NCBI RefSeq assembly: GCF_900168165.1
Contig: NZ_FUYV01000002.1
Span: forward strand, 62,001 to 126,000
DNA length: 64,000 nt
Reading direction: 5' to 3'
From: Alkalitalea saponilacus
GTDB lineage: Bacteria; Bacteroidota; Bacteroidia; Bacteroidales; Marinilabiliaceae
Shown: piece after piece, positions 17,414 through 50,176 of the stretch
Numbering within the stretch: position 1 is the first letter of the stretch
How the letters are laid out: every line of letters begins with the position of its first letter
The notes under the pieces: model-generated
Database searches by the model: none
Seen by the model: the letters and a program-made list of their open reading frames with translations, nothing else
What the model was told of the DNA's origin: nothing
Made by a program: the position numbers and the translations under genes

Positions 17414-17492
17414 ACGCTAAACCCCTTTGAGTTTTTTAAAAAAAACAAACAAATATCTGTTATGATATCTCCTCGTGAGTCACTCTTATTAT

Positions 17493-17606
17493 CCTTATTC
17501 GTTCAAAACGAATAAGGTTCATCTATATAAGAAGCCCAAACAAAATCATTAAATGATGATTTAATAAACAAGAAATACTCACCCGATGAAATAATCATCG
17601 GGTGAG
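17493..17606 (-). terminator. Two hairpins between susE/F and amylase genes
   Basis: The gap holds two perfect stem-loops. One is an 11-bp stem at 17493-17517 with a 3-base loop, and the other is a 12-bp stem at 17578-17606 (CTCACCCGATGA / TCATCGGGTGAG) with a 5-base loop. Neither has a strong U-tract on the minus strand, so they may be partial terminators or mRNA-processing/stability elements. Confidence 0.5.
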
Positions 17607-17642
17607 TGAAAAGTTTATAATTATAAACTGGTCTGTTTAATC

Positions 17643-19475: not shown

Positions 19476-19509
19476 AGAGATAATTATTTAAACAGTTTTT
19501 GAATTTTTA

Positions 19510-19537
19510 CCAAAGGCACTTTAAAGAGTGCCTTTGG
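19510..19537 (-). repeat. Hairpin in the susD-susE/F gap
   Basis: CCAAAGGCACT and AGTGCCTTTGG form a perfect 11-bp stem with a 6-base loop. On the minus strand it is followed by TAAAAATTC rather than a U-run, so a partial terminator or an mRNA-stabilising 3' structure for susCD fits better than full termination. Confidence 0.55.
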
Positions 19538-19553
19538 GCAAAAACCGAACAGA

Positions 19554-21182
19554 TTAATTTGAATAACCGGTATTTTGTATCAAATTAGGATTTGTATCCA
19601 AATCATTCACCGGAATTGGATATAAGTCTCTAAAAGCTCCTGTAGAACGTCCCTCAGGAACGTTTCCTTTCCAGGTCCAGATATAATCACCACCTGTGAG
19701 TTTCCCAAAACGAATCAGATCTGTTCTTCTATGTGCTTCCCAGTAAAGTTCCCTAGCACGTTCATCCAAAATGAAATCCAAAGTAAGTTCAGAGTCAGTT
19801 ATTCGATGGTTCGTGTTTCCGAAAGCACGGTCGCGCAGTTCATTAACTAACTGCAGAGCAATGGCTCTGCTTCCACCTTGTCCTCCTCTTAGCACAGCTT
19901 CGGCATACATAAGATAAGCATCGCCTAAACGGAACATTGGGAAGTCAGTGCTGGCAAAGTCTCCCTCTGCCATTGGGTCTGGTTCACCGTCAGATCTTAG
20001 ATTTGTGAATTTGTATACACCTATACCATGAGTAAACAAACCAACATTTTCTACTTCCCATGACCAACTTTCAGGGTCAAAGAAGAACTGAGCACGGTGA
20101 TCTTCTCTGGCATTAAATACCGGATCTTCGGTAGTAAAATCGCTTTCATTAAACCCAAAAATCTCTACAAGTTCTTTAATCGCTCTGATTCCACCCCATG
20201 CACCAACACCATTTGGCAGCATGTTTCCACCTCTTGATGCATTGGTAATAAATGTCATACCACCATATTGCTGAGTATTTTGAGCATTAAAAGAGATTGG
20301 AAAAATGATTTCCGGACTCTGGTCATTATCAACCCTAAACATTCTTATGTAATTAGGATCTATTGAATACCCTCCTTCATTTATAACTTTATTTAGGTAA
20401 GTTAATGCTTCAGTGTATTTTGCTTCTCCAATATAAACCTCTGCATTAAGATACAGTTTAGAAAGCAACATCCATGCAGCAACTCTGTCAACGCGAGCAT
20501 ATTCATTGGTACCAGGCGCAGCAAGGTCGCCTTCTAAATCAATAAGTTCCTGCTCGACGTAATCGAAAAGATCGGCACGAGTGATTCGTTGAGGAAAAAA
20601 TGCCCCAATCGGATCTTCATCTGTTACAAAAGACACGTTTCCAAACATATCAATGGCATGCCAATAAGAAAAAGCTCTTAAGAAACGAGATTCTGCCTGA
20701 TATAGTCTTAGATCTTCAAGAAAATCACCTGTTGCACTGCCCATGGCATCTTCGGAAGTCCTGATGAATTCATTTGCCAATGTAATGGCATAAAAAATAC
20801 GCGAGTACATAGCACCAATAAACACATCATTTGGTGACCAGGTGTGCCAATGGAAATCTTTAATACTGGCATCATCCCATGCCATCACTGTCTCATCAGT
20901 TGGTAACTGTTGTAAATTCCAATATAAACGCAGATAGTTACCAAAGCCTTCATCAATCCCTTCGATATCAGGCAATCCACCACCTCCACCACGTTGACCA
21001 CTGATGGCATAGGTTGCATATACACGTGCCAAAGCACGTTTATATGATAGCTCATCAGAAAATACATTTGTTGCAGTTGCCTCATTAGGGTCAATAGGCT
21101 CTACATCCAAATCGTTTATGCATGCTGTAAAGGCTACCATCACAGCAATTGCAAATATTGATAGAAATTTAATATGTCTCAT
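19554..21182 (-). CDS. susD: SusD/RagB-family nutrient-binding lipoprotein
   Basis: 542 residues with a lipoprotein signal whose lipobox places the acylated residue at Cys21 (FTACINDLD). The SusD fold is indicated by the N-terminal ANVFSDELSYKRALARVYA helical region. It is also supported by the C-terminal pattern LDFILDERARELYWEAHRRTDLIRFGKL, written here in part: ERARELYWE and RRTDLIRFG are the classic SusD motifs. The protein ends with LYPIPVNDLDTNPNLIQN. It forms the lid over the SusC barrel and binds maltodextrins. It lies 29 bases after susC, so the two are cotranscribed. The starch assignment comes from the surrounding amylases and SusE/F protein. Confidence 0.95.
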   Translation of the reverse strand: MRHIKFLSIFAIAVMVAFTACINDLDVEPIDPNEATATNVFSDELSYKRALARVYATYAISGQRGGGGGLPDIEGIDEGFGNYLRLYWNLQQLPTDETVMAWDDASIKDFHWHTWSPNDVFIGAMYSRIFYAITLANEFIRTSEDAMGSATGDFLEDLRLYQAESRFLRAFSYWHAIDMFGNVSFVTDEDPIGAFFPQRITRADLFDYVEQELIDLEGDLAAPGTNEYARVDRVAAWMLLSKLYLNAEVYIGEAKYTEALTYLNKVINEGGYSIDPNYIRMFRVDNDQSPEIIFPISFNAQNTQQYGGMTFITNASRGGNMLPNGVGAWGGIRAIKELVEIFGFNESDFTTEDPVFNAREDHRAQFFFDPESWSWEVENVGLFTHGIGVYKFTNLRSDGEPDPMAEGDFASTDFPMFRLGDAYLMYAEAVLRGGQGGSRAIALQLVNELRDRAFGNTNHRITDSELTLDFILDERARELYWEAHRRTDLIRFGKLTGGDYIWTWKGNVPEGRSTGAFRDLYPIPVNDLDTNPNLIQNTGYSN

Positions 21183-21211
21183 ATTCTATAATCTTTTAAG
21201 AAGTGATCATT

Positions 21212-24200
21212 TTAGAAGTTTACATTCACTCCCAACATAAATGTCCTTGGTCTGGGATAAATATTGTTATCAATTCCTCCGGAAACCTCAGGATCTAATC
21301 CGGAATAATCAGTAATAACAAATGCATTCTGCACCGAAGCAGTAACACGACCACTTAATCTTTCAGTCAACAATCTTTCGAATGAGTATCCCAAAGTGAT
21401 ATGATCCATTCTGAAAAATGAAGCATCTTCCAAATAAACGCTAGACCAATATTGTGCATTTGTGAAATTTGTTCTCTGCACAGCCTTTGGAATGTTTGAA
21501 AGATAACCAGACTGGTTGTAAAGCTCCTGATAAATAGCTCTGTCTGACCAGTTATTGTTATACACTTCATTTCCAATACTTAATCTTCCGGCAAACGAGA
21601 AGTCCCAGTTTCTGTATTTGAGGTCAGATGAAATACCAATCAAGAAATCGGGAGTTGGTGTACCCATAAAGTATTTGTTGTCATTATTTCCAGCAACATT
21701 TCCACCTTCTCCGGTTTTATCAACATACAGCCCTTCAATTGGCATTCCGTTGGTGTCGTAAACCTGCTGGAACAAGAAGAAAGTATTGGCTGCTTGTCCT
21801 ACACGGTTCCACATAACTGTGTTTCCTGTTCCTCCTGAAATACCTCCAAGAGGATATCCTACACCTGCGTCTTCTGTGTCAAGATTTGACAGAGAGGTTA
21901 TCTCATTACGGTTGGCAGAGAAATTGGCTCCAATAGACCATCTCAGATCAAGTCTGGAGATAGCGCGGTAATTAAGATCAATTTCTATACCTTGATTTTC
22001 AAGTGAACCAACATTCGTGGTCAGGTAGTTTGAGAAATTTGTTCCGGCAGCAATAGGAACGTTACTAATAAGATCAACCGTTTCACGGTGATAAACATCT
22101 ACTGATCCCTGGATTCGGTTATTCAGGAACCCAAAGTCTAAACCAAGATTATAAGTCGTTGTCTCTTCCCACTTAAGATTTGCATCATATGGGTTTGGTC
22201 TGAGAGTTGAATAATAGGTGTCACCAAATCGATAATAGGCACCTTGCTCACTTTCCCTGTAAATTGGAATATACGGGTAATAATTTGTACCGATATCCTG
22301 CTGGCCAGTCACTCCGTATCCAAAACGCATCTTTAATTCCGAAAGAGAATCAGCGTTCTCAAGAAAAGACTCTTCATTTATCTTCCATGCAAAAGCAAAG
22401 GCAGGGAACAATCCCCAGCGATTATCTTTTCCAAATCTGGAAGAGCCGTCATTTCTTAATGTGGCAGTTACGAGATATCTGTCCATAAAAGCATAATTCA
22501 AACGGCCGAAGAAAGACACCAAATAGTTTTCATTCTTATATGCACGAGAACCAGCTCCTATGTATTCGCCATCATCACCCATTTCCCAGGATCTGTTGCG
22601 TGAACTGCCTGAGCGATAAAAATACTGCCATCCATAACCAGCAGTAGCATCAAATCGGTGATCTCCTACTTCTGTCACATAATTCAGGTAGAAATCAAGT
22701 AATTGATTTTTACGAGTACCTCTATAACTCTGAACATTAAATGACGGTTCACGCAAGCTCCACGAAGCTCTTGGATCCGTATTATTATTACCCTCGCCCT
22801 CAGAAACTTCCATACCCATGTTCAAATTTGCTCTTAGTCCTTCCAAAAATGGAACTGCGTAATCGAACTGAATATTACCAATTGCTGACTGAACATCTGA
22901 TTGATCATCCCTGTATGCCAATCTGGCCATCGGGTTGTGAGTCGCAATATTTATGGGATTTCCATTTAACTGGTCTGCCTGAGCCAATTCAATCCATGTA
23001 AAGTATCCACCATATCTGGTGTTATCATTTCTGATTGGCTGTGATGGGTCAAACTGAAATGCTGAAGAAATCGCATCCTGATTAGAGAAATTATTATGAA
23101 TGTCCATCCCTTTCAGGTTTATGGTAACCCTAAGCTGATCATCAAAGAATGAAGGATTTGCAGTCACTGCAAGAGTCGTTCTTGATAAACTTGATTCCTT
23201 GAGAATACCATTTTCTATGGTGTGTCCAATAGAAGCTCTGAATGGAATATCATTATAGCGTCCGTAAAAACTCACGTTGTGGTCTGTAGAAACTGCAGTT
23301 CTGTAGATTTCATCCTGCCAGTCAGTATTAGCCTGCCCTAGTCTGGTCAATGCCACTGGATCCATGCCATGATTGGCAACGCGATCGGCAATTAAATCAC
23401 GAAACTCATTACCATCAAAAACATCATGATATTTCACCAGTCGTCCTACAGAAACATTTCCGGTATAGTTTATATTCAGTCCATCCTGTGTTCCCCTTTT
23501 GGTTGTAATAATAATTACACCATTTGAAGCTCGTGATCCGTAGATGGCTGTTGCGGAAGCATCCTTCAAAACAGTCATTGACTCAATATCATTGGGATTT
23601 ATGGTAGAAAGGGGGTTAGCTAGCCCTTCTACGCCGCTATTATCAACGGGGAACCCATCAATTACAATAAGCGGATCATTAGAAGCTGATAATGAGGATC
23701 CTCCCCTGATTCGGATAGTAGATCCGGATCCAGGCGCTCCACTGCCCTGTGTAACCATTACACCAGGAATGCGTCCCGTAATTAATCCTTGTGGCGTGGT
23801 AATTGGACCGCGGTTGAAGTCATCCGCTCCAATTACATTCACTGAACCAGTAGCGTCAGACTTACGTATTTGTCCATATCCAATAACAACTACCTCATCT
23901 ACTCCAAATACACTCGGCTGCATAACAACGTTAACAACTGTTGCGTCGGCAGAAACGTTTCGTCTTTCTGTATCATAGCCAATAAAAGAAAATTGCAATA
24001 TATCCCCTACATTGGCATTAATTGAATAGGTTCCATCAATAGAAGTAATTGTTCCTGTTGGCGTTCCGGCAATCACAATAGTTACTCCCGGAACAGGTTC
24101 TCCATTAGTACTATCAGTGACCCTACCCGTAACGTTTACCTGCTGAGCAGATACTCCCAAGGGAATAAGGCAGCCCAATAAAAGCATCAGGAATTTTTGT

Positions 24201-24220
24201 TTTAATAACATCTTCTTCAT
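21212..24220 (-). CDS. susC: SusC/RagA-family TonB-dependent transporter
   Basis: 1002 residues. A signal peptide (about 1-25) precedes a carboxypeptidase-regulatory-like domain (VTGRVTDSTNGEPVPGVTI, about 28-105). The plug domain (about 115-235) carries the SusC-type motifs TIRIRGGSSLSASNDPLIVIDG, shortened here to IRIRGGSSL and PLIVIDGFP, and MTVLKDASATAIYGSRASNG. The 22-strand-type barrel ends with the aromatic terminus FMLGVNVNF. It should import maltodextrins across the outer membrane with TonB energy. It is the first gene of the minus-strand operon, behind the TATATTTG promoter at 24362-24392. Confidence 0.97.
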   Translation of the reverse strand: MKKMLLKQKFLMLLLGCLIPLGVSAQQVNVTGRVTDSTNGEPVPGVTIVIAGTPTGTITSIDGTYSINANVGDILQFSFIGYDTERRNVSADATVVNVVMQPSVFGVDEVVVIGYGQIRKSDATGSVNVIGADDFNRGPITTPQGLITGRIPGVMVTQGSGAPGSGSTIRIRGGSSLSASNDPLIVIDGFPVDNSGVEGLANPLSTINPNDIESMTVLKDASATAIYGSRASNGVIIITTKRGTQDGLNINYTGNVSVGRLVKYHDVFDGNEFRDLIADRVANHGMDPVALTRLGQANTDWQDEIYRTAVSTDHNVSFYGRYNDIPFRASIGHTIENGILKESSLSRTTLAVTANPSFFDDQLRVTINLKGMDIHNNFSNQDAISSAFQFDPSQPIRNDNTRYGGYFTWIELAQADQLNGNPINIATHNPMARLAYRDDQSDVQSAIGNIQFDYAVPFLEGLRANLNMGMEVSEGEGNNNTDPRASWSLREPSFNVQSYRGTRKNQLLDFYLNYVTEVGDHRFDATAGYGWQYFYRSGSSRNRSWEMGDDGEYIGAGSRAYKNENYLVSFFGRLNYAFMDRYLVTATLRNDGSSRFGKDNRWGLFPAFAFAWKINEESFLENADSLSELKMRFGYGVTGQQDIGTNYYPYIPIYRESEQGAYYRFGDTYYSTLRPNPYDANLKWEETTTYNLGLDFGFLNNRIQGSVDVYHRETVDLISNVPIAAGTNFSNYLTTNVGSLENQGIEIDLNYRAISRLDLRWSIGANFSANRNEITSLSNLDTEDAGVGYPLGGISGGTGNTVMWNRVGQAANTFFLFQQVYDTNGMPIEGLYVDKTGEGGNVAGNNDNKYFMGTPTPDFLIGISSDLKYRNWDFSFAGRLSIGNEVYNNNWSDRAIYQELYNQSGYLSNIPKAVQRTNFTNAQYWSSVYLEDASFFRMDHITLGYSFERLLTERLSGRVTASVQNAFVITDYSGLDPEVSGGIDNNIYPRPRTFMLGVNVNF

Positions 24221-39293: not shown

Positions 39294-40901
39294 CTACCAA
39301 GCTGCAGTAGGAAGTTCCTTTCTGATAACATCTTCTTTCACATCCCTGTCAAAACTGACCATTCCCGGCTCATAGTTAGGCATCACAACAACGCCGGTAT
39401 ATTTTCCTTCTAAACGAATGGGCTCTTCTCCTTTTTTATCAGACAAAGAAACGTTGTCAAGATATAGTTCATACACATCGTGTGCTACCATCGCTCTCTC
39501 TTCTGATTGAATCGAAACATTTCTCATATTGAGATTTTTTACTCTGTGGAGACGAATTCCTTCGCGGGCATTTACTACTTCAATATTCTCCAGATAGATA
39601 TCCTCCAGCCACTTCTCAGGCAGACCATTTAAAACAATTGCTCTGGGTACTCCATCAATTCTAATATTTCGGATGTCGATGTTTCTTAACAGTGGAGCAG
39701 GGCCAACTCCAGCTCCTGTGTAAAATGTATTGAAGTTAAGAGCTTCATATGTAGAATTAATCACCTCTATATCTCTGATATATATATTCTCAGTAACATT
39801 TCCCCTACCACGGGCAGTTTTAAACCGAATACCCCGGTCACAATCTTCAAACAAGGCATTGTGCACGTAAATATTGCGAATACCTCCCGAAGTTTCACTT
39901 CCAAAAACTACACCGCCACTACCGGTAACCACTCTGTATGCATGGAAATGACGAATCACAACATTTTCTGTCGGAATATTGATTTCCAATCCCTCTTCGT
40001 TAAAACCAGATTTGATAACAATCGCGTCATCTCCAGTGCTCAACGTAGTATGCTCAACCAATACGTCTCTTGATGAGTCAATCACAATTCCATCGCCATT
40101 ATGAGAGTCCCGGCTATTGATGGTAACATCACGTATGATGGCACGTTGCGAATAAACCAAATGTAGATTCCACATCGGTCCGTTATTAACGGTAATTCCT
40201 TCAATCAACAGATCTTCAGACTCCCAGAAAACAACAAAATTTGGTCGCATCCCCTCTGTACCGGAACCTTTTCCAAAATTTGTTCTTCTTGACAAGGGTA
40301 CTTTGGTTGCTTCTGCCCTGGGTTGAACAGTCCAATCTGCCAGCCAATGGCCAGCCTGTCCGTCAAGAACTCCTTTTCCGGTAATGGCAACATTTCTAAC
40401 CCTGTAAGCATAAATAAGCGGAGAGTAGTTATATACTTCTACACCTTCGTATCGCTGAATAACTACAGGCAGATAGTCCTCTTTATCTTCACTGAAGTAA
40501 ACTGTACTTCCTTCAGAAATGTGTAAATGAATATTACTTCTCAGGTGAATCGGTCCGGTTAACCAGTTTCCGGCAGGTATTAATACTTTTCCTCCTCCAA
40601 CTGCATGTGCAGCATCAATGGCGCGATGAATGGCCTCTGTGGATTTAAAAGACTTATCGCTTCCCATTTCTTTGGCTCCGAAATCGACAATATTAAATAC
40701 CCGATTAGGGAATGTGGGTCTTTCCAATTGAATCATTTCAAATGGCGCCACAATAGGAGCAATCTCATAAGGAATTGTTGCCACAGGTTTCACCTGTGCA
40801 CAGGCTACAGTTCCAAAAAAAGTTACAAGGATAATGCTAAGCAATCCAAATTTTGACTTTTGCACCAACCTCATCCGAATGTCAGTTAAATTAAATCTCA
40901 T
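39294..40901 (-). CDS. GH28-family (polygalacturonase-like) secreted protein, atypical active site
   Basis: 535 residues with an N-terminal signal sequence ending near residue 35; Met10 is an alternative start. The right-handed beta-helix begins with FNIVDFGA and GGGKVLIPAGNWLTGPI, typical of GH28. The three catalytic aspartates are present: Asp270 (HNGDGIVID) and Asp291/Asp292 (TGDDAIVIKSG). Arg and Lys of the RIK-like motif are kept (GIRFKTARGRG). However the conserved His of the GHG motif is replaced: the sequence reads VTGSGGVVFGSE, with Ser328 in that place. Family members act on polygalacturonan, rhamnogalacturonan or related glycans. Activity may be altered here. No pectin-related genes surround it. 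Confidence 0.85.
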   Translation of the reverse strand: MRFNLTDIRMRLVQKSKFGLLSIILVTFFGTVACAQVKPVATIPYEIAPIVAPFEMIQLERPTFPNRVFNIVDFGAKEMGSDKSFKSTEAIHRAIDAAHAVGGGKVLIPAGNWLTGPIHLRSNIHLHISEGSTVYFSEDKEDYLPVVIQRYEGVEVYNYSPLIYAYRVRNVAITGKGVLDGQAGHWLADWTVQPRAEATKVPLSRRTNFGKGSGTEGMRPNFVVFWESEDLLIEGITVNNGPMWNLHLVYSQRAIIRDVTINSRDSHNGDGIVIDSSRDVLVEHTTLSTGDDAIVIKSGFNEEGLEINIPTENVVIRHFHAYRVVTGSGGVVFGSETSGGIRNIYVHNALFEDCDRGIRFKTARGRGNVTENIYIRDIEVINSTYEALNFNTFYTGAGVGPAPLLRNIDIRNIRIDGVPRAIVLNGLPEKWLEDIYLENIEVVNAREGIRLHRVKNLNMRNVSIQSEERAMVAHDVYELYLDNVSLSDKKGEEPIRLEGKYTGVVVMPNYEPGMVSFDRDVKEDVIRKELPTAAW

Positions 40902-41290
40902 AGAATATCATATTAAGTATAGTCGAATTATTCTTTATCACAAATATCTTATAAAAACGTGAATAAAAGTTGTCACATTTTATCTGAATAAGTGTGACTA
41001 GTTATTAATTAAAAATGTTTTGGCAACATACACACACATATTAGATAGTTTGAAACAAACCGACTGGGACAATTTTAGCAAAAGTCGAAAATGAACACTT
41101 AAATAGCTTCATAGAATAAAAGATGAAACAATTACCATCAAACCATAAATAATACTTTTCGCAAAGGAGCAAATGATTCCTTATCTGTGAATGCCTTGGA
41201 GCAACTATCTGATCGTTAATTGGTATTAAAAATCAAAAGTCCTGTGCAGTATTCTGCACAGGACTTTTAAAATATACTTTCTCAACAAAC
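40902..41290. other. Intergenic region upstream of the GH28 gene
   Basis: 389 bases without a gene. It should contain the GH28 promoter; GATATTTG on the minus strand (about 40939-40946) is one mismatch from TATATTTG. The upstream edge holds the terminator of the preceding operon (41235-41268). I see nothing else in it. Confidence 0.5.
41235..41268 (-). terminator. Terminator of the cohesin-like/kelch operon
   Basis: AAAAGTCCTGTGCAG and CTGCACAGGACTTTT form a perfect 15-bp stem with a 4-base loop and an adjoining A/T tract. It lies 22 bases after the stop codon of the cohesin-like gene. Confidence 0.88.
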
Positions 41291-44200
41291 TCACCTTTGG
41301 ATGATCAGCTTAAGACTCTCACAGCCTTCATGCGAGCATAAGCTTACAACGTAAACTCCACTTGGCAAGCCGGATACATCTATGCTCTGATTTATGACAT
41401 CAACGGTAGTTACAATCACCTCACGCCCCGTAATATCATAAATAAAAACACTCAAAACCCGAGAGGCATTAATAAAGATCTCTACTGTTGCGGGATTTGG
41501 CCATACTTTAACATCCTTCAATTCGTGAGAATTGAAACCTGTACAGACTTCAACGGTTATCTGCATAACTCCTTCACCAATACAACCATTTCCATCAGTG
41601 TAAAAATACTCAACATCAAACAACCCGGCTCCTGAAATTATCGGATCAAAAAAACCATCCAATACCCCTAAACCAGAATATTGACCACCAACCGGAGTTG
41701 CACCGGACAACTCTATGGGTGAATCATTCGTACATAAGGTCAAATCAGGAGGCATTACGATTTCAGGGAGTGGAAACACCTCGGCTGAGAACACTCCGGT
41801 ACTTGTACATCCATTTTCATCTGTGTAGAGATAATTAATCTCATGAACACCTGTTCCTGATTCACGTGGATTAAAAAACCCTTCGTGAACACCGGAACCC
41901 GAATATATACCACCAGCAGGCAGTGCCTCCGACAATTCCAGGGGTGCATCATTTAAACACAACTGCAGATCAGAAGGCATCACGACCTCAGGGAGTGGAA
42001 ACACCTCTGCGATAAACACACCAATACTTTTACATCCATTTTCAGATGTATAAAGGTATTCAATCTCATGAACACCTACTCCAGATTCCTGCGGATCAAA
42101 AATGCCTTCTTGAACTCCGGAGCCCGAGAATACTCCGCCGACGGGCAAGGCACCGGATAGCACCAATGGGGCATCATTAACACACAACACCTCATCATCG
42201 GGCATTGTAACTTCAGGAGATGGAAGCATAACCAAAGTCAACACAACAGTGGAATCACAGCCATTGTAGGCTTTAAACACTTCGGTATAGGTACCTGACT
42301 CAGTAAGATCCTGTCTTCCAAAATAATAAACATCACCTTGACAAAACTCATCTTCATCAGTTTCGAAGAAATTCTCATGTTCATGTGAAATACTTATTGA
42401 TTGATTCCCCAGATTAAAAGGAATTTTATTTCCATTGAAATCACTGAATTCAATCTCCTCCTTCTCCCATGAAAAGGAGGTAGACACCCCAAGATCAGCA
42501 TCAAATCGCAACTCTATAAGCACATCATCGCCAACATTAGCAGGCTCCGCTGAAGCCCAGGAAATATAAATCAAATCATCGATTTGATTTACTGATAATA
42601 CGCCATCTTCCATCTCACTGTGCACCCAATCATACCCATAAAAATTCACATCATCTGAATCAAAAGCAACAACAAGGGATATGGCTCCCAAATTATTGGC
42701 ATTGGTAACCTTTATCGGTAAATAAAGCATCCCAGCACATAATCCCGTGTTGTGACCAAACGAAACAGAAATCAACGGGGTTGTAACCTCCAGCTTACCT
42801 GCATTTGAGAAAACCACAGGAGGACAACTTCCCGACACTTTACATCTGTATAAGTTGCCTTGCATTTCGGCTGTCACATTACTTAAGGTTAACTGTGTGC
42901 TGGTTGCACCGCTAAAACGTCCTCCGTTGGATAAATCACTCCAGCTGTCGCCATTATCTGTACTCTCCTGCCATTGATACGACAAACCTGTGCCAGAAGC
43001 CTGAAGAGCAAACTGTACACTTCCGCTTCCATAAATACTTTGATCTTCAGGGTGCGAATTTATAACAGGATTTTGAGGAACATTAATATTCCCGTTTTGA
43101 TAGGACGAAAATATATTTAATCCGTTAATGTTAACAAACTCAGAATCTGTCCTCCAGTTCAGAGAAGAACTGCCAGGAACGCCATCAAATTCAAACTCTA
43201 CCAAAACACCATTATCGGGAATGGAAGCCGCAGTTGTACCCACCCAACTGATATATAACACCCCCTCATCGGCATTTGCCGCAAACATGCCGTCTCTCAG
43301 ACTCTCGTGCAAACTACTATATCCGGTAAACTCCAATACCTCATTATTATATTCAAGCGCAAGAGAAAAGGCTCCGACCCTTGAGAAACTGCTTACCCTG
43401 ACAGGAATTGCAATTTCCCCGGGACATATAGTTGATGTACCCAAGGTAGTGGAAATATTAGGCAAGACAGTAAGCGTGGCTTCCCTACTATGTAACGTTG
43501 GCTCGCAAGTTCCTGTTATCCGGCAACGATAAACATTTTCATCCAGATCAATTCCTACAGAAGAGATTGATAAAGTAGCTGTTGTTACACCCGAATACCC
43601 GCTGCCATTATTCAGGTCAGTGAAAGTATCCCCGCCATCGGTACTTACCTGCCAGCGATATGACAAGCCGGTTCCAGATGCAGTTAATGGGAATGTGACA
43701 TTTTGATTCTCGGCAATCACCCTGTCGGGTGGTTGACTCATAATCTGAGGTAAAGAATTAACTTGCAAACTGCCGTTGTTATACACACTGGGGATTTCAT
43801 TCATGGATGAACCAAAAAACTCATTTGATTCAACCTGCCATTGCAATTGGCTGTTTCCCGGCTCAACATTAACCAACAATTCAAATAGCGGCTCATTAAG
43901 AATCGTTATGGACTCCAAGGCAACCCATGATAGATAAACAATGCCATTCTCCTGGTTTACCACAACGGTATTGTTAAAATCAGGATGAAAACTATCAACC
44001 CCTAATAATTCAACCACATCGGTATTAAAACCTATTGCCAATGAAAACGAAGAAACATCGATAAAACCCTCGGTTTCAACAGGTATTGAATGTGTTCCCG
44101 GACACACAGTTAGAGAGGGAATAGATGCTATAACCGGTTTTACAACCTCCAATGATACATTATTAGAGAAAACTGAAGGAGAGCATGTGCCCAAAACATG

Positions 44201-44905
44201 ACATCGGTAAAGGTTACCGTTTAATCCGGTCGAGGCATTGGTTATCCTCAAATTAGCAGTAGTTACATTGGAATAAGGCGCTACGTTTGACAAGTTTATA
44301 AACGTTTCTCCCCCATCTTCACTCAACTGCCATTGGTAACTCAACTGAGTACCCTGTGCTGATACAGAAAAGACAGTTGTTCCGTTTTCCAGAATAAATT
44401 GCGATGTGGGCTGAAGAGTTATTGAAGGTGGTTGCAATAATGTAACAGAGCCTCCTTGAAAAATTACATCCAGAACCTCTCCGGAATCATTACTTATTTC
44501 GCAATTTCCGGGGGTTGCAAGATCCCAACCAAGTGAACTGCTTCCATATTTTAGAACCTCAAATTCCAATTCAAGCAGCACACCTTCATCAATACTTACT
44601 GGATTGGTGTCAATCCAACTTATCATCACACGTCCATTGCCACCATTCACAATCAGCATACCACTAGCAAAGTCCGCATGCCTGTTTCTGTAATTGACAT
44701 ATGTAAATTCTTCCTCATTGTACTCAAGTACCAGCGATATGGCTCCCACATTATTAAAATTGGAGACTTCAACCGGCACTGCTATTTCATTGGAACAGTC
44801 TGTGACTGTTCCAATGCTTACAACTGCGTTTTCTGAAAACAGTGTTTTTTGTCCAAAAAGTACAATAAGAGAAAGAACGATTAATTCTTTAATGTAAACT
44901 CTCAT
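41291..44905 (-). CDS. Large T9SS protein with four cohesin-like and three Ig-like domains
   Basis: 1204 residues. After a signal peptide (about 1-23), cohesin-like domains (about 25-155, 255-382, 485-610 and 708-838) alternate with Ig-like domains (about 157-252, 383-484 and 610-706). Each cohesin-like unit has a cysteine near its start, then IAVPVEVSNF.NVGAISL-type text and a VYISW-type strand. Each Ig-like unit has LSYQWQ/LSYRWQ and NLYRC. Next come a short cysteine-containing segment (about 847-893) and three 75-residue tandem repeats (895-1119). The C-terminus is a T9SS sorting domain (from about 1127, VWPNPATVEIF). It looks like a surface scaffold rather than an enzyme. It starts 6 bases after the stop of the 1754-residue protein, so both are made from one transcript. 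Confidence 0.85.
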   Translation of the reverse strand: MRVYIKELIVLSLIVLFGQKTLFSENAVVSIGTVTDCSNEIAVPVEVSNFNNVGAISLVLEYNEEEFTYVNYRNRHADFASGMLIVNGGNGRVMISWIDTNPVSIDEGVLLELEFEVLKYGSSSLGWDLATPGNCEISNDSGEVLDVIFQGGSVTLLQPPSITLQPTSQFILENGTTVFSVSAQGTQLSYQWQLSEDGGETFINLSNVAPYSNVTTANLRITNASTGLNGNLYRCHVLGTCSPSVFSNNVSLEVVKPVIASIPSLTVCPGTHSIPVETEGFIDVSSFSLAIGFNTDVVELLGVDSFHPDFNNTVVVNQENGIVYLSWVALESITILNEPLFELLVNVEPGNSQLQWQVESNEFFGSSMNEIPSVYNNGSLQVNSLPQIMSQPPDRVIAENQNVTFPLTASGTGLSYRWQVSTDGGDTFTDLNNGSGYSGVTTATLSISSVGIDLDENVYRCRITGTCEPTLHSREATLTVLPNISTTLGTSTICPGEIAIPVRVSSFSRVGAFSLALEYNNEVLEFTGYSSLHESLRDGMFAANADEGVLYISWVGTTAASIPDNGVLVEFEFDGVPGSSSLNWRTDSEFVNINGLNIFSSYQNGNINVPQNPVINSHPEDQSIYGSGSVQFALQASGTGLSYQWQESTDNGDSWSDLSNGGRFSGATSTQLTLSNVTAEMQGNLYRCKVSGSCPPVVFSNAGKLEVTTPLISVSFGHNTGLCAGMLYLPIKVTNANNLGAISLVVAFDSDDVNFYGYDWVHSEMEDGVLSVNQIDDLIYISWASAEPANVGDDVLIELRFDADLGVSTSFSWEKEEIEFSDFNGNKIPFNLGNQSISISHEHENFFETDEDEFCQGDVYYFGRQDLTESGTYTEVFKAYNGCDSTVVLTLVMLPSPEVTMPDDEVLCVNDAPLVLSGALPVGGVFSGSGVQEGIFDPQESGVGVHEIEYLYTSENGCKSIGVFIAEVFPLPEVVMPSDLQLCLNDAPLELSEALPAGGIYSGSGVHEGFFNPRESGTGVHEINYLYTDENGCTSTGVFSAEVFPLPEIVMPPDLTLCTNDSPIELSGATPVGGQYSGLGVLDGFFDPIISGAGLFDVEYFYTDGNGCIGEGVMQITVEVCTGFNSHELKDVKVWPNPATVEIFINASRVLSVFIYDITGREVIVTTVDVINQSIDVSGLPSGVYVVSLCSHEGCESLKLIIQR
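41560..42222 (-). repeat. Three tandem 225-bp coding repeats
   Basis: Within the cohesin-like protein, three 75-codon units follow each other at about 41998-42222, 41773-41997 and 41560-41772. Each reads roughly P.PE.VMP.DL.LC.NDAP, then GG.YSGSGV.EG.F.P, then Y.YTDENGC. Units one and two are most alike. Confidence 0.85.
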
Positions 44906-44911
44906 AATAGT

Positions 44912-47900
44912 CTATTTGGACACAACAATTTTTACAACTTGAATGCTTTCGCCATAGTTTGTATTAGCCCTCATATTGAGCATATAAACACCATTTGCTA
45001 TCAAAGAAGCATCTATACTGTACTGATGATTCCCCGGTGCAAAAGACTGCTCACCTGACTGATAAACCGATGTACCGGCAGCATTTACCAACTCAAATGA
45101 AAGCAGAGCGTCACTTTCGAGGGCAAAACTTACTGTTGCACTCTCTTTTACCGGATTAGGATACACTACCAACGATGATGTCTTAATATTATTTTCATCC
45201 AGAAATGTTGCTACTTTTCTTAACTCGGGTGCAGATATATTAGCTCTTAAAGGTTCTCCCCATTGATTGGCGATTTCAATGTTTTCGTACAATTCAGGCA
45301 ATAAAGATTCAGAAATTGGTGCAAAATCTAATGCCTCCATCTCTACCACAATGCGCAGAGGTTGTTCCTGATTCGTTTGAATCGGTTCCGTTCCTGCCCA
45401 TGCAAAACGGAACAATCCGTTTTGAGCGCTGTATACAAATCCATTTCCACCATCAAAACTAACGCCTTTCACTTTCATCATATCCTCAGGATAATAAAAC
45501 CCAAAGGAAATAGCTCCGACATTTTCATCAATATCAAAATCGAAAGGCAATTCAAATTCATTGTATGATGTTACAACCACCTCTCCCGAAGGGGTAATTC
45601 CTTGTCCTGATTTCAGACTCTTCAAGAGGCTGTATGACCCATTAACATCACCAAAGCACAATACTCTTAGCCCGCTAAAAATAGAATTTCCATCCACTAA
45701 ATAATCATCGTAATGATAAAGAAAATCGCCTGATGGAAACTCATCAATTAATCCGGCATATCGTTTCAACATAAAGAGCGCATCGGTACCATTTACACTT
45801 CCGCTCAGATTTACATCTGCTGCCGCAAGGCTTAACCCGGTAAGCAGTTCTTTGCGGGTAAAATGATTCAAAACCAGCAATGCATCTGTTGCATTTACGC
45901 CACCCCATGGTTCAGCAGGCTCAACCAACATTCGATAACCCGACGAAGCGAATGCAGAAAATGCAAAATCACCGGCTTCTGAAACGGTTTGTTGAGCTAC
46001 TTCTACGCCATCAAAATCCACAATGCGGATGATGGCATCACTCATCGGAGTTGAAGCCTCATTTCCATAATGCAACTCACCGGTAAGTAGAAGCTCTTCT
46101 CCTTCCATCCACGGTAATTGAGCAAATTCCACGGTATAAACCTTGCCACGATCAGCCTGATTATGCTTATCATAAATAACATTGGAAATCATGGCAGAAT
46201 CTGCTGCACTCCAAAAGTTGTAACGCGCATTGATATCGTTGATGGTGTTGTTATAAACAGCATATCCGGGGCTGCTATAAAAATTATTTACATATTCAGG
46301 TTCTCCCCCAATGGTAACACGACTGGTTCCATCCAGATAAATGGACGCATCCTGATTATTCATGAAAACATTGTTGCGAAAAGCATCGGGTTGCGAATTC
46401 CATAGTCGTATTCCATAACCTCCCGAGTTACGCACGACATTATTATTAAAAGTGGGCTCAGTGGTTCTGTCAAGGAAAATGTTATACTCAGAGCCCTGCT
46501 CAATGATGCAGTATTTCATAACAGAAGAAGCCCCGTGTAAATCACTGCCAATATAATAGTTAATGCCACCCCAACCTTCTGACTCATCGAAAGCTTTAAA
46601 AACAATGGGAGAATCTTCGGTTCCTATCGCCAATAAATTACCTGTATACCAACTGTGAGTATTCCTGCCTACATTGAGAGAAGCATCGGGATTAAACCTC
46701 ATTTCTACACCCGGATGAACAATAAAATCAATTGTAGCCCGATCACGCTCTAACCCAATATTGCCAAGTACATGATAAGGAATACCATCACTGTAAAAAG
46801 TTGCATCTGAAGTATAAAGACCCCCATTAACAGCTATGTACTGCATACCATTGTCGGCATAGCTATTATTATCAAGAATTGGAAGACTGTTCCAGGTTGC
46901 CAGATACAATGGGTATTCTTCATTTTCGCCAAACGTAGTGTTACTTATTGTTGGCGTACTCGCTCCGGTTAAAAACATACCGTTGGTGCCGTTGTTAAGT
47001 ATTTGGCAATTATCAAACTCCGGTGATGCGGCGGTTAAGTAAACACCATTTTGAGCAGCATTTCTGATGGTAACTTTTTCCATTAAAGGCATGGTCGTTC
47101 TGTCACAAAACAGGTTATAGGCATCGCCATGCTCAACAACACAATATTTCATAAAAGATGATGCACCATATAAATTGCTTCCATTAAAGAAATTCATTCC
47201 TCCCCAGCCTAACGATTGATCAAATGCACCAAACACGATTGGGAGTTCCTCTGTTCCTTCTGCAATTAAATTACCCCCATTATTGCTATTATTTACAAGA
47301 CCAACATCGAAAGAAACATCCTGATCAAATAAAAATATTACGCCTGGCTCGACAATAAAATCAGCAGGATTTCGATATGCTGTTAATGCGATATTATTTC
47401 TAACATGGTAAGGAATTCCGTCATTTACATAAGTTATATCACCTGTAATATCTCCGCCACTAAGAGATATGTACTGCATTCCATTGCCTTCATAACTGTT
47501 ATCCTCAAGAATTGGAAGGCTATTCCATGCTAACATCACTATTGGATACTCTTGATTTTGAGAAAACAAGGTATTACTTATAACCGGCGTACTTGATCCA
47601 TTAAGTCTTACCCCGTTCAATCCATTATTTAAAACTTTTGAATGGCTTAACTCGCCCCGACTGTTATGATACCGAATGCCATTACCAGCAGAATTCTGTA
47701 TAACACTGTTCACAATATTTACCACCGTGCCTTCAGCATAAATATTGTAAATTCTTCCATTTTCTACAATACAGTATGCAAGTTCTGAAGGTGCTTGACC
47801 GGATATATTTAATCTAAGATGAATGCCATCCCATCCTCCGGGTTCACCGTTAAAGGAGGTGAATTTTATGGGTCGTTCTTCAGTTCCCACAGCATATAAT

Positions 47901-50176
47901 TCACCAAAATTAACAGATGATGTACTAAAATACAAACTAGCACCTTCTATAGCTTTAATGGTATTTCCGGGTTCTATGGTTAAACGTCTGTTGGCTCGAA
48001 CCGTTAATTGCCCCAAAAGAATAATATCATAATCAATGGTAAACCATGTTTGATTGCTTGTAACATCTCCCTCCGGCAGAACGATACCATTAAACTCATT
48101 ATCAACCAGGATGGGACTCCCCCCAGGCTGCCTGATGCTGGTATTGGGGGTATTGTAATATATTCCATACTTATTTTCACCAATGGTTGTATTGGTAAAA
48201 GTTGGGTTGGAGTCAAAACCAGTCATCATGACCCCGGCATCTCCATTATTGCTAATTTCTGTATTGATAAATGTTGGAGAAGAAGATTGCAAGCTAATCC
48301 CGTGCGACGCATTATTTATCACTTGAGTATTCTCAATATTAATATTTGCATTTTGCAAATGAATTCCTCTACCTGTTGAATTCCTGATCACAGAATTATT
48401 CAACATAGGCTCGGTAGTGTCGCTGCAACGCAGGTTAGCATTATTGACTCCATGTCCTGCGTTTGATATCACCACATAATTAAATTGAGAAGAAACACCG
48501 TTGTTACTGTTCGCACTGAACCAAATTCCTCCCCAAAGCCCCTCTTCGTCAAGATACCCGGTAAAATATACAGAGTCACCTTCCAGCCCGTTACAAATAA
48601 TATTTGCCTGTCGAACCTCCATGGTTACCTCAGGTAAAAACAAGATTTGTGTTCCTGCTTCAAAAGTATGTGTACCGCCGGTAAAAACAATATTTCCAGT
48701 AACCCAGTAAGGGCTTGCAGCTTTAGTATAGGTAACATTTCCACTGAGGTTTCCGCTTAACTGACTACCGGGAGTTTGCATCGTAACACTATTCAAAGTA
48801 GCCTGAGCTGCGGTTTTATCATTAAATAACTTAACTTTGTATTGCAGATATCTCCCGGTTTCTTCAATTTCAATGGGACTTATATCCTCATACGTGTTCC
48901 AGTTGCTCCATACTCCATCATTACCGGCAATTCTAAAGGAGACTTCCAGTCCTGCACCAGTTGCGATGCTTGTTGCAAAGGATAGTTCGCTAATGATGCG
49001 CTCGGCACCAAGTTCATCAAACTTGGTTGAAATAAACAAACCTTTACTTTTTCGATTGGTTGAAAGCGTCAACAAACTATACCTCGCATTTACAATCGGA
49101 ACCCCTGAAAGGTTGGTTCCTCCGCCATACACCACTTGTCCGTTGGCTCCAAATGCCACAAAATCCTTTACATAATCAACCATCCCCGTAGAGGAACTCC
49201 AAACCAGCGGAGTGGTTGTAATGTCAGCAAAAGCGACACCATTGGTAATAGAAGTCGCATTTTCCCCTCCCATCACCACCAATAGTCCATTGGCAATAAA
49301 AGATGCATGATGACTAACAGCCTGAGGGAGGTTTGTCTCAGAAACCCATCCTCCCAAATTACCATCTGATTGAGAAAAATTACGGAAAACAGTATTGAGT
49401 TTTTCATCATCATTATTGACACCGCCTATCACAAGAACATCTTCACCATCTACAACCATGGTATGATTTCTCACCTCCACAGGCAGAACAGTTGTCACTT
49501 CAAACTCCGATAATTTACCGTTAGCCAATACTTGTGCCACCCATACTTCAGAAGTTCCACTACCATTTGAAAACTGGGAACTTCCACCAGCAACATAGAG
49601 ATATCCGTTACAAAACACAGCAGTATGCCCATGCAATGATGATGGCAAACGAATTTCCATCTCTTGCCATTGTCCAATATTTCCATTCAAACTCATGGTG
49701 GCATAAAAAATTCTGTCACTCACCTCATCGTCTGTAGCACCGCCTAACACATAAATGGTATTGTCTCCTATGACCATTGCATGGTTTCTAACCCCTTTGG
49801 GAAGAGCCGACACCGTTGTCCAGCCACTAATTCCTGAGGATTGCAAAGCAGCTCGATATACTTGTGGCGAATTAGATGTTCCGTTAAACCCACCTGAAAG
49901 AAATACAAAACGATTATTCCAGGTGGCAGCCTGATGACCACTTAGTGTTTGAGGAATGACTGTGGTAGTAACCCAGTTGCCCATAGACGATGCCTGAAAA
50001 GGTAAGCCAATGGCATTGGAACCAACCAGTAAATCATTGAAATTACCGATATTAAAATCATCATTACTGGTGTGAGTAAATGAGACCTGCGCATGCATTG
50101 ACAAGGAGGGAAAAAGAAGAAGATAAACTAGAAATGCGGACGCAAGTCCCCCAACAAAGTGTAGAAACTTTTTCAT
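44912..50176 (-). CDS. Giant T9SS protein: kelch, beta-helix, dockerin-like and cohesin-like modules
   Basis: 1754 residues. In order: signal peptide (about 1-29); kelch-type propeller (about 55-350) with recurring LSGG, VLGG and VIGG motifs; a beta-sandwich (about 365-465); a long right-handed beta-helix built from about four related segments (about 470-1340) with motifs such as IRNSTGRGIHL and ILNNGTNGMFL; a transthyretin-like domain (about 1360-1420); a dockerin-like module (1423-1470); a cohesin-like domain (about 1520-1660); and a T9SS sorting domain (from about 1680, VYPNPVKESATV). The second dockerin half, DVNLSGSVNGTD (from Asp1454), keeps the calcium-loop pattern. The first half, PWGGVNATDALLV, has lost it. 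No catalytic motif was recognised, but beta-helices can be lyases or adhesins. Confidence 0.85.
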   Translation of the reverse strand: MKKFLHFVGGLASAFLVYLLLFPSLSMHAQVSFTHTSNDDFNIGNFNDLLVGSNAIGLPFQASSMGNWVTTTVIPQTLSGHQAATWNNRFVFLSGGFNGTSNSPQVYRAALQSSGISGWTTVSALPKGVRNHAMVIGDNTIYVLGGATDDEVSDRIFYATMSLNGNIGQWQEMEIRLPSSLHGHTAVFCNGYLYVAGGSSQFSNGSGTSEVWVAQVLANGKLSEFEVTTVLPVEVRNHTMVVDGEDVLVIGGVNNDDEKLNTVFRNFSQSDGNLGGWVSETNLPQAVSHHASFIANGLLVVMGGENATSITNGVAFADITTTPLVWSSSTGMVDYVKDFVAFGANGQVVYGGGTNLSGVPIVNARYSLLTLSTNRKSKGLFISTKFDELGAERIISELSFATSIATGAGLEVSFRIAGNDGVWSNWNTYEDISPIEIEETGRYLQYKVKLFNDKTAAQATLNSVTMQTPGSQLSGNLSGNVTYTKAASPYWVTGNIVFTGGTHTFEAGTQILFLPEVTMEVRQANIICNGLEGDSVYFTGYLDEEGLWGGIWFSANSNNGVSSQFNYVVISNAGHGVNNANLRCSDTTEPMLNNSVIRNSTGRGIHLQNANINIENTQVINNASHGISLQSSSPTFINTEISNNGDAGVMMTGFDSNPTFTNTTIGENKYGIYYNTPNTSIRQPGGSPILVDNEFNGIVLPEGDVTSNQTWFTIDYDIILLGQLTVRANRRLTIEPGNTIKAIEGASLYFSTSSVNFGELYAVGTEERPIKFTSFNGEPGGWDGIHLRLNISGQAPSELAYCIVENGRIYNIYAEGTVVNIVNSVIQNSAGNGIRYHNSRGELSHSKVLNNGLNGVRLNGSSTPVISNTLFSQNQEYPIVMLAWNSLPILEDNSYEGNGMQYISLSGGDITGDITYVNDGIPYHVRNNIALTAYRNPADFIVEPGVIFLFDQDVSFDVGLVNNSNNGGNLIAEGTEELPIVFGAFDQSLGWGGMNFFNGSNLYGASSFMKYCVVEHGDAYNLFCDRTTMPLMEKVTIRNAAQNGVYLTAASPEFDNCQILNNGTNGMFLTGASTPTISNTTFGENEEYPLYLATWNSLPILDNNSYADNGMQYIAVNGGLYTSDATFYSDGIPYHVLGNIGLERDRATIDFIVHPGVEMRFNPDASLNVGRNTHSWYTGNLLAIGTEDSPIVFKAFDESEGWGGINYYIGSDLHGASSVMKYCIIEQGSEYNIFLDRTTEPTFNNNVVRNSGGYGIRLWNSQPDAFRNNVFMNNQDASIYLDGTSRVTIGGEPEYVNNFYSSPGYAVYNNTINDINARYNFWSAADSAMISNVIYDKHNQADRGKVYTVEFAQLPWMEGEELLLTGELHYGNEASTPMSDAIIRIVDFDGVEVAQQTVSEAGDFAFSAFASSGYRMLVEPAEPWGGVNATDALLVLNHFTRKELLTGLSLAAADVNLSGSVNGTDALFMLKRYAGLIDEFPSGDFLYHYDDYLVDGNSIFSGLRVLCFGDVNGSYSLLKSLKSGQGITPSGEVVVTSYNEFELPFDFDIDENVGAISFGFYYPEDMMKVKGVSFDGGNGFVYSAQNGLFRFAWAGTEPIQTNQEQPLRIVVEMEALDFAPISESLLPELYENIEIANQWGEPLRANISAPELRKVATFLDENNIKTSSLVVYPNPVKESATVSFALESDALLSFELVNAAGTSVYQSGEQSFAPGNHQYSIDASLIANGVYMLNMRANTNYGESIQVVKIVVSK
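45745..45910 (-). other. Dockerin-like module coding region
   Basis: Two VNxTDAL-containing helical repeats (residues about 1423-1444 and 1452-1475 of the giant protein) match the duplicated F-hand plan of type I dockerins. Only the second repeat retains Asp, Asn and Ser ligands for calcium. Confidence 0.75.

Follow-up and report, generated by a model that had tools for sequence, protein, structure and literature searches.

A stretch of 64,000 nucleotides from Alkalitalea saponilacus, a bacterium of the soda-lake type (Bacteroidales, Marinilabiliaceae; contig NZ_FUYV01000002.1, positions 62,001 to 126,000, hereafter the window) carries on its minus strand a two-gene operon that probably encodes a self-sufficient cohesin-dockerin complex exported by the type IX secretion system (T9SS), in which the downstream product, P1, would be a scaffold with four sockets and the upstream product, P2, its client. 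This reading is built on the anatomy of the two genes and their conserved adjacency in relatives, on the predicted fold of the first P1 cohesin, on the recognition by profiles of a dockerin and a further cohesin in P2, on the closed set of such modules in two Natronoflexus genomes, and on the presence of the SprA gene of the T9SS.

A preliminary description, made from the letters alone, had delimited two open reading frames (ORFs) of 1754 and 1204 residues, 6 bases apart, the first product ending in a dockerin-like module, a cohesin-like domain and a T9SS tail, and the second made of four cohesin-like domains alternating with immunoglobulin-like (Ig) domains before its own T9SS tail, with a kelch/beta-helix cargo and no recognised enzyme. 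All of this is borne out: the P2 dockerin (Pfam, 31.9 bits) and both T9SS tails are recognised, as are the four P1 cohesins by two profiles and the P2 cohesin by profile-profile comparison and in relatives, and no catalytic family scores above cut-off in P1 or P2 with the Pfam and TIGR profiles. On the minus strand P2 lies upstream and P1 downstream, with the following features:

44912-50176, minus strand: P2, T9SS-type protein of 1754 aa, ORF confirmed
P2 N-terminus, minus strand: signal peptide, recognised by eye
49157-49981 (residues ~66-340), minus strand: P2 kelch beta-propeller, Pfam kelch families
46172-48679 (residues ~500-1335), minus strand: P2 right-handed beta-helix, PF13229 at 122.8 bits in four stretches, outer limits estimated
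45917-46078 (residues ~1367-1420), minus strand: P2 CarboxypepD_reg/SdrD_B-like (prealbumin-like) module, directly before the dockerin
45761-45904 (residues 1425-1472), minus strand: P2 dockerin, PF00404
45251-45562 (residues ~1539-1642), minus strand: P2 cohesin, from hhalign and relatives
44915-45166, minus strand: P2 T9SS C-terminal sorting domain, PF18962 (Por_Secre_tail) 33.0 bits, cut-off 27; TIGR04183 26.4 bits
44906-44911, minus strand: P2-P1 intergenic gap of 6 bp (TAG stop, ACTATT, ATG)
41291-44905, minus strand: P1, four-cohesin scaffold of 1204 aa with alternating Ig domains and a T9SS tail, ORF confirmed
44498-44821 (residues 29-136), minus strand: P1 cohesin 1, PF00963; model Z 19.2 to 6kgd_A
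43808-44128 (residues 260-366), minus strand: P1 cohesin 2, from profiles; weakest of the four, 57.7 bits with the lineage profile
43121-43450 (residues 486-595), minus strand: P1 cohesin 3, from profiles
42428-42766 (residues 714-826), minus strand: P1 cohesin 4, from profiles
41297-41506, minus strand: P1 T9SS C-terminal sorting domain, PF18962 (Por_Secre_tail) 42.2 bits, cut-off 27; TIGR04183 45.8 bits

Conservation of the P2-P1 Pair

A search of a genome contig collection (84,980 species by its description) with residues 1-900 of P2 returned 33 loci, ten of which end before the 3' end of P2 and do not enter the count of adjacent pairs. In all 23 remaining loci, P2 carries a dockerin and the next gene, 6-104 bp away (median 13), carries four cohesins; three of these P1 genes (L121, L140, and L147) run off the available sequence. 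Adjacency in 23 of 23 loci rules out that the pair is due to chance or is a local curiosity. Most of the 33 loci are labelled Bacteroidales, Bacteroidetes or Bacteroidia, two are labelled 'uncultured bacterium' and one Alphaproteobacteria. The latter (L148), a metagenome-assembled contig whose P2 is 44% identical to that of the window, also carries the operon; it probably comes from a Bacteroidota genome and was mis-binned. L126 and L137, both among the 23, are operons arranged in tandem on one contig.

The cohesin register of P1 is the same in 22 of the 23 loci, the fourth cohesin starting at residue 803 in L136, i.e., about 80 residues later than elsewhere (710-728). In five relatives, full-length P2 shares 36-42% identity with that of the window and, again in five relatives, the first 840 residues of P1 share 37-41%, while the C-terminal part of P1 is not conserved, which suggests that the portion with the four sockets is kept and the distal end exchanged. 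Distances between P1 sequences follow those between P2 sequences (Mantel r 0.93, n=22, L150 and the window row left out). Within the family, the P2 C-terminal region finds no match at E <= 1e-5 in 35 other genomes, one of which (G003) holds a distant version of the pair, with a 1502-aa protein bearing a dockerin followed, 81 bp further, by a 1318-aa protein bearing cohesins.

Genomes of the order were scored on their best candidates (up to 13 for cohesins, 21 for dockerins, and three each for P2 and P1), and absences hold at that sensitivity. The N-terminal part of P2 has a match in 15 of 295 genomes, and the whole P1 model in 12, plus G302, where it is cut by a contig end; all 13 also have P2. 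The two P2 genomes outside these 13 are G149, whose P1 is cut by a contig end, and G102, whose P2-like protein comes without dockerin, cohesin, or adjacent P1 in the 729 bp available downstream. The remaining 22 genomes with a match to the P1 model (G149 included) have shorter or differently built matches, and G104 and G142 hold variants with differently split cohesin genes. G244 has one P2 paralogue without dockerin and P1, while the gene preceding its P1 is cut by the contig and shows only its cohesin end. Two P2 paralogues devoid of dockerin and cohesin, L213 and L216, have no adjoining cohesin gene (2/2); a third, L214, runs off its contig.

The P2 Dockerin

Dockerin_1 (PF00404) matches residues 1425-1470 of P2 with 31.9 bits, versus a curated cut-off of 22.9, and comparison with the profiles of solved dockerins gives E-values of 1.1e-9 for 8x3a and 4.7e-5 for 1ohz_B. 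Both repeats of the tandem are visible in a 24-row alignment, in which the second calcium loop (D1454, N1456, S1458, N1462, and D1465) is complete in 24 of 24 rows. Since the first loop is incomplete and a canonical type I dockerin is defined by two complete calcium-binding loops, the P2 module is, judging from its sequence, a dockerin variant. One-loop dockerins exist elsewhere. In clostridial type I dockerins, a Ser-Thr pair before the invariant Asp contacts the cohesin, and the title of structure 2ccl names an S45A, T46A mutant. At the corresponding place of repeat 1, P2 and its relatives have Ser (17) or Ala (7) followed by Thr (23/24), and in repeat 2 mostly Gly (22/24), again followed by Thr (23/24).

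For modelling, the end of P2, the stop codon read as a residue, and the start of P1 were joined in a composite chain, which gave a mean predicted local distance difference test (pLDDT) of 76.4 and a predicted template modelling score (pTM) of 0.62. The dockerin helices lie at the expected places both there and in a model of the isolated prealbumin-dockerin part; their pLDDT is higher in the composite, which is not counted as evidence because the two alignments differ.

The degenerate first loop also bears on an alternative, namely that the modules are structural spacers through which P1 and P2 do not bind each other; the cohesins would then serve as beta-sandwiches in the manner of Ig domains, and the dockerin as a calcium clip. 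The alternation of the P1 cohesins with Ig domains fits this view as well, as does the existence of genomes with dockerins and no detectable cohesin. However, it does not account for the conserved adjacency of P2 and P1, for the dockerin-less P2 paralogues lacking a neighbouring P1 in two of two cases, or for the conserved residues where each of the two dockerin helices begins, and we consider it quite unlikely.

The P1 Cohesins

In P1, the Pfam Cohesin family (PF00963) reaches 55.5 bits, versus a curated cut-off of 24.1, and Ig_3 is found as well. Pfam reports two significant cohesin stretches and a profile from Bacteroidota four, spaced by about 230 residues; the lineage profile recovers the same four genome-wide. 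Cohesin 1, the one that was modelled, is predicted to adopt the jelly-roll fold of type I cohesins, its model superimposing on 6kgd_A with Z 19.2 (rmsd 1.9 over 132 residues, 26% identity), on 2xdh with Z 18.1, on 1ohz_A with Z 16.9, and on type I cohesins overall with Z 16-19. The solved structure that best matches the P1 cohesin by profile is 2xdh. Two cysteines of P1, C37 and C135 (window ~44795 and ~44501), are invariant in 21 of 21 P1 cohesin-1 sequences and could form a disulfide. No carbohydrate-binding module (CBM) family is found in P1 with Pfam at E up to 1.

The Other Modules of P2

The kelch families detected in P2 are also present in all five relatives scanned. Among them, Kelch_4, named 'Galactose oxidase, central domain' in Pfam, exceeds its cut-off in P2, but this is a kelch-repeat model. 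The NosD family is listed for P2 as well as the beta-helix family. The prealbumin-like module, a beta-sandwich in the composite model, is absent from the Pfam listing of the window P2; CarboxypepD_reg is listed in five of five relatives, below its curated cut-off in each.

The cohesin of P2, which follows the dockerin after a CFGDVNGSY element, was missed in the window copy both by Pfam and by the cohesin profile built here. It is assigned on the basis of relatives, 21 of 23 having it detected by hidden Markov model (HMM), and of profile-profile comparison, which aligns it with the P1 cohesin (hhalign 95.9%, E 5e-9) and gives 2xdh as its best solved match (E 0.0011).

This module suggests an alternative in which the dockerin of P2 would bind the cohesin of P2 itself, either inside a single chain or between copies arranged head to tail, while the P1 cohesins bind something else or act as spacers. 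The two modules stand ~65 residues apart, and both are kept, by HMM, in 21 of 23 relatives. A self-contained P2 would not, however, need P1, whereas in 23 of 23 loci P1, with its four cohesins, accompanies a P2 that has a dockerin; in addition, the P2 cohesin is more diverged (outside the genus it is 20-34% identical to the window copy, versus 35-45% for P1 cohesin 1). Pairing within P2 is thus unlikely in our view. The preliminary description had left room for it, as for purely structural modules, and both options are weakened.

Export and Anchoring

The sorting domains of P1 and P2 are both above the cut-offs of PF18962 and TIGR04183, and the genome encodes the T9SS translocon protein SprA (TIGR04189, 2738 bits) together with 70 Por_Secre_tail matches, 64 of them above cut-off. 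P1 and P2 are therefore predicted to be T9SS cargo.

The far end of P1 varies. Among 20 complete P1 C-termini examined by eye (six of which were also run against Pfam), 12 are T9SS-like, including one (L133) below the Pfam cut-off. Four others (L123, L127, L130, and L152) terminate in a double EF-like tail whose last residues are SQVP or TQVP and one more, three (L129, L135, and L145) have other dockerin-like ends, and L144 ends in an S-layer homology (SLH) domain and RHS repeats. In this last case, the 2189-aa P1 relative (L144:9998-16567) has four cohesins followed by SLH (45.9 bits) and RHS repeats (164.5 bits), its end having apparently been swapped for an RHS-type protein.

The double EF-like tail is also seen in the P2-like C-termini of L213 and L216, which are without T9SS tail; it lies at the C-terminus or near it, and often closes in SQVP, TQVP or similar. 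Pfam does not list the tails of L123 and L152 as Dockerin_1, and the double EF-like tail might represent a second dockerin-like or anchoring module.

Cohesins and Dockerins Across the Order

When searched with the lineage profiles, two Natronoflexus genomes each yield four cohesins, which all belong to P1, and a single strong dockerin, that of P2; the diverged cohesin of P2 comes on top of these four. This closed set implies that the dockerin partner of P1 within its own genome would be P2. In G000, a weak extra dockerin-profile match (E 0.027) covers positions 24-71 of the model only, its prealbumin-like part, and Pfam finds the P2 dockerin above cut-off and five others below it (E 0.02-0.63).

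An excess of four P1 cohesins over one convincing dockerin is what would be expected if P1 captured dockerin-bearing proteins released by other bacteria of the community, and a similar idea was raised for Paenibacillus guangzhouensis in the accessible part of a recent survey (PMC11557425). Such capture would nonetheless leave the linkage of P1 to a dockerin gene in the same operon unexplained, and appears very improbable.

In the 295 genomes of the order, and at E <= 0.001, cohesins are found in 83 and dockerins in 104 (77 and 98, respectively, above the Pfam cut-off), compared to one and two of 14 control genomes. Both occur in 64 genomes, cohesins only in 19, dockerins only in 40 and neither in 172 (Fisher p ~1e-20, not corrected for relatedness). 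Where both are present, their counts are correlated (rho 0.59, on the best 13 and 21 matches at most per genome).

Giant scaffolds with a similar cohesin period were observed as well, with pieces carrying 9 (L223, G129:C23), 10 (L224, G230:C35), and 6+6 cohesins (L227, G249:C2), the first two in frames of 6522 and 5621 aa; their genomes have at least 21 dockerin matches each. From 21 dockerin ORFs located in 15 regions, 14, picked from six dockerin-rich genomes, were scanned with Pfam. A prealbumin-like match directly precedes the dockerin in 11 of these 14 proteins, which include an M14 peptidase, an M10-like peptidase, a phosphatase, and lectin- or leucine-rich repeat (LRR)-like proteins. 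One has Laminin_G_3, of the lectin/glucanase superfamily, and no glycoside hydrolase family is found in the 14 at E <= 0.001. Separately, the dockerin clients L234, L235, L237, and L240 end, soon after the dockerin, in a GDVN/GDAN/GDTN..S..P element resembling the one of P2, and have no T9SS match in their Pfam lists.

A plant-cell-wall cellulosome was considered for this genome and rejected, given the single dockerin above cut-off, the absence of any dockerin-bearing glycosidase, and the lack of a CBM on P1. Of the features that characterise cellulosomes, a scaffoldin with at least two cohesins is present (four in P1), while dockerin-bearing glycoside hydrolases and a scaffold CBM were not found.

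Proposed Assembly

Under the favoured reading, P2 and P1 would be co-expressed from one short operon, exported through Sec and then the T9SS, and joined at the outer surface by the P2 dockerin plugging into P1 cohesins. As the dockerin would fit each of the four P1 cohesins, one P1 could display up to four copies of P2, each with its kelch propeller and long beta-helix. This part of P2 is likely the working end, and is probably adhesive; the gain would then probably be a more avid attachment to a polysaccharide or some other surface. The cohesin of P2 itself could extend the assembly.

Several observations weigh against this proposal. The first calcium loop of the P2 dockerin lacks the D-x-N-x-D part, the isolated prealbumin-dockerin model is of low confidence (pLDDT 62.5), and a fold search with that model gave no Z >= 8 and neither dockerin nor X-dockerin among the matches listed. 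P2 has its own cohesin, and docking might therefore occur in cis. G074 contains, ~2 kb upstream of P2, an additional P2-like gene with a dockerin that has no P1 of its own, and the giant scaffold of G129, the nearest to full length of the incomplete or differently built matches, covers most of the P1 model (positions 95-846) in a genome without P2. G110 and G213, with 11 and 10 dockerins, respectively, have no cohesin match at E <= 0.001, hence some dockerins of the order have no partner that could be detected; the partner may be missing or diverged, or these dockerins may serve another role. Eight of the 20 complete P1 C-termini are without T9SS tail when inspected by eye, which indicates that P1 anchoring differs between lineages. 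Lastly, the Mantel correlation and the genome co-occurrence partly reflect shared descent and show no contact; binding of the P2 dockerin to P1 cohesins is inferred.

Set against the expectations of the preliminary description, conserved pairing is upheld in 23 of 23 loci, with G074 and G129 as departures from it, and the assumed module folds in the case of P1 cohesin 1, which models as a type I cohesin, the dockerin model remaining of low confidence. The surface complex held by cohesin-dockerin contacts that it proposed is still the best reading, in view of the P1 cohesin 1 model and of the adjacency, and is tempered by the incomplete first calcium loop.

A bolder version, which we put forward tentatively, is that of a self-assembling surface polymer, with head-to-tail chains of P2 and P1 as a branching hub. 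The operon might in that case be a compact member of a widespread and largely undescribed Bacteroidota scaffold system, which would have grown in other families into giant scaffolds for numerous dockerin-bearing clients, among them peptidases, phosphatases, and adhesin-like proteins, i.e., a cellulosome analogue not built for cellulose.

If the contact between P1 and P2 is real, Gram-negative bacteria with a T9SS would have in cohesin-dockerin assembly a general means of building their surface. The operon is also carried by a cultured species, Natronoflexus pectinivorans DSM 24179, and because it has only two genes, the proposal can be tested with a few small recombinant modules.

Genomic Setting

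An amino-acid permease gene lies upstream of P2, 198 bp away. Downstream of P1, the following element was found by a consensus scan only:

41233-41270, minus strand: terminator-like hairpin of 17 pairs, then a T run

Seven such sites were found versus 7.9 expected by chance, so that only the length and position of this one are notable. Beyond it, on the same strand as P1, lies a GH28 pectinase-type gene (39294-40901), whose product has no dockerin or T9SS match in the Pfam list and which, in the flanks compared, adjoins the operon in Natronoflexus only. Further away, the window contains a starch-type locus (14639-24220) with a T9SS-tailed alpha-amylase, SusE/F, SusD, and a SusC-like TonB receptor. 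The sister genome G001, of the same genus as the window, has the operon with 91-92% identity in the parts searched. A plasmid-borne unit was also considered: the prealbumin-dockerin part gave no tblastn match at E <= 1e-5 in 72,556 plasmid records, a search confined to plasmids.

The flanks of two groups of relatives deserve mention. In five of the 23 loci (L136, L137, L140, L143, and L146), a LuxR-type response regulator gene, preceded by a histidine kinase gene, lies directly upstream of the operon, and the one kinase scanned, that of L136, carries FG-GAP repeats. Dedicated regulation of the operon by this pair is possible; no match to it was found in the window at E up to 1e-10. In L129, dockerin-profile matches flank the operon on both sides (L129:7606-9081, 491 aa, and L129:18754-22527, 1257 aa), so that P1 may have other clients there.

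Relation to Known Systems

Cohesin-dockerin systems as such are well known, and the novelty here lies in a T9SS version from Bacteroidales that is conserved, comprises two genes and is apparently non-enzymatic. No description of the P2-P1 operon was found in the open-licence literature searched, in which PMC12871809, PMC12484212, PMC9763041, and PMC8810776 were included. In the accessible parts of the respective papers, a camel-rumen study reports cohesins in Firmicutes_A bins only (PMC9177762), and dockerins alone are noted in Bacteroidales single-cell genomes (PMC10266427). A 2024 cellulosome survey, as far as its accessible part goes, required a dockerin-bearing glycosidase and excluded metagenome-based genomes (PMC11557425), criteria by which an operon like P2-P1 would be passed over.

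Like the clostridial cellulosome, the system described here combines a multi-cohesin scaffold of predicted type I cohesin fold (Z 16-19) with a dockerin-bearing client. It differs in that neither a dockerin-bearing glycosidase nor a CBM was found, in the single convincing dockerin of the genome, in its T9SS tails, and in the grouping of client and scaffold in one two-gene operon. The Archaeoglobus fulgidus system is close in another respect, 2xdh being the best solved profile match for both the P1 and the P2 cohesins, and its cohesin and dockerin genes are adjacent too.

Other archaea of the anaerobic methanotrophic (ANME) group encode proteins that combine a dockerin with as many as five cohesins (PMC9012536, accessible part). 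Such archaeal non-cellulosomal systems belong to another domain of life, and the accessible part of the same source mentions neither a T9SS nor a kelch/beta-helix client.

For Candidatus Stygibacter (Cloacimonadota), a cellulosome-like complex was proposed on the basis of a 3,755-aa scaffold with tandem cohesins, CBMs, and separate enzyme clients (PMC8542988, accessible part). The tandem-cohesin scaffold and a T9SS-type C-terminal domain for surface attachment are shared with P1, which in contrast has four cohesins, no CBM found, and an adjacent non-enzyme client.

Finally, the monovalent adaptors of P. guangzhouensis resemble P2 in combining a dockerin and a cohesin in one chain (PMC11557425, accessible part). 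They belong to a Gram-positive bacterium with SLH anchors and many adaptors, several of them fused to glycosidases, whereas the operon described here has one adaptor-like protein, with a kelch propeller and a beta-helix.

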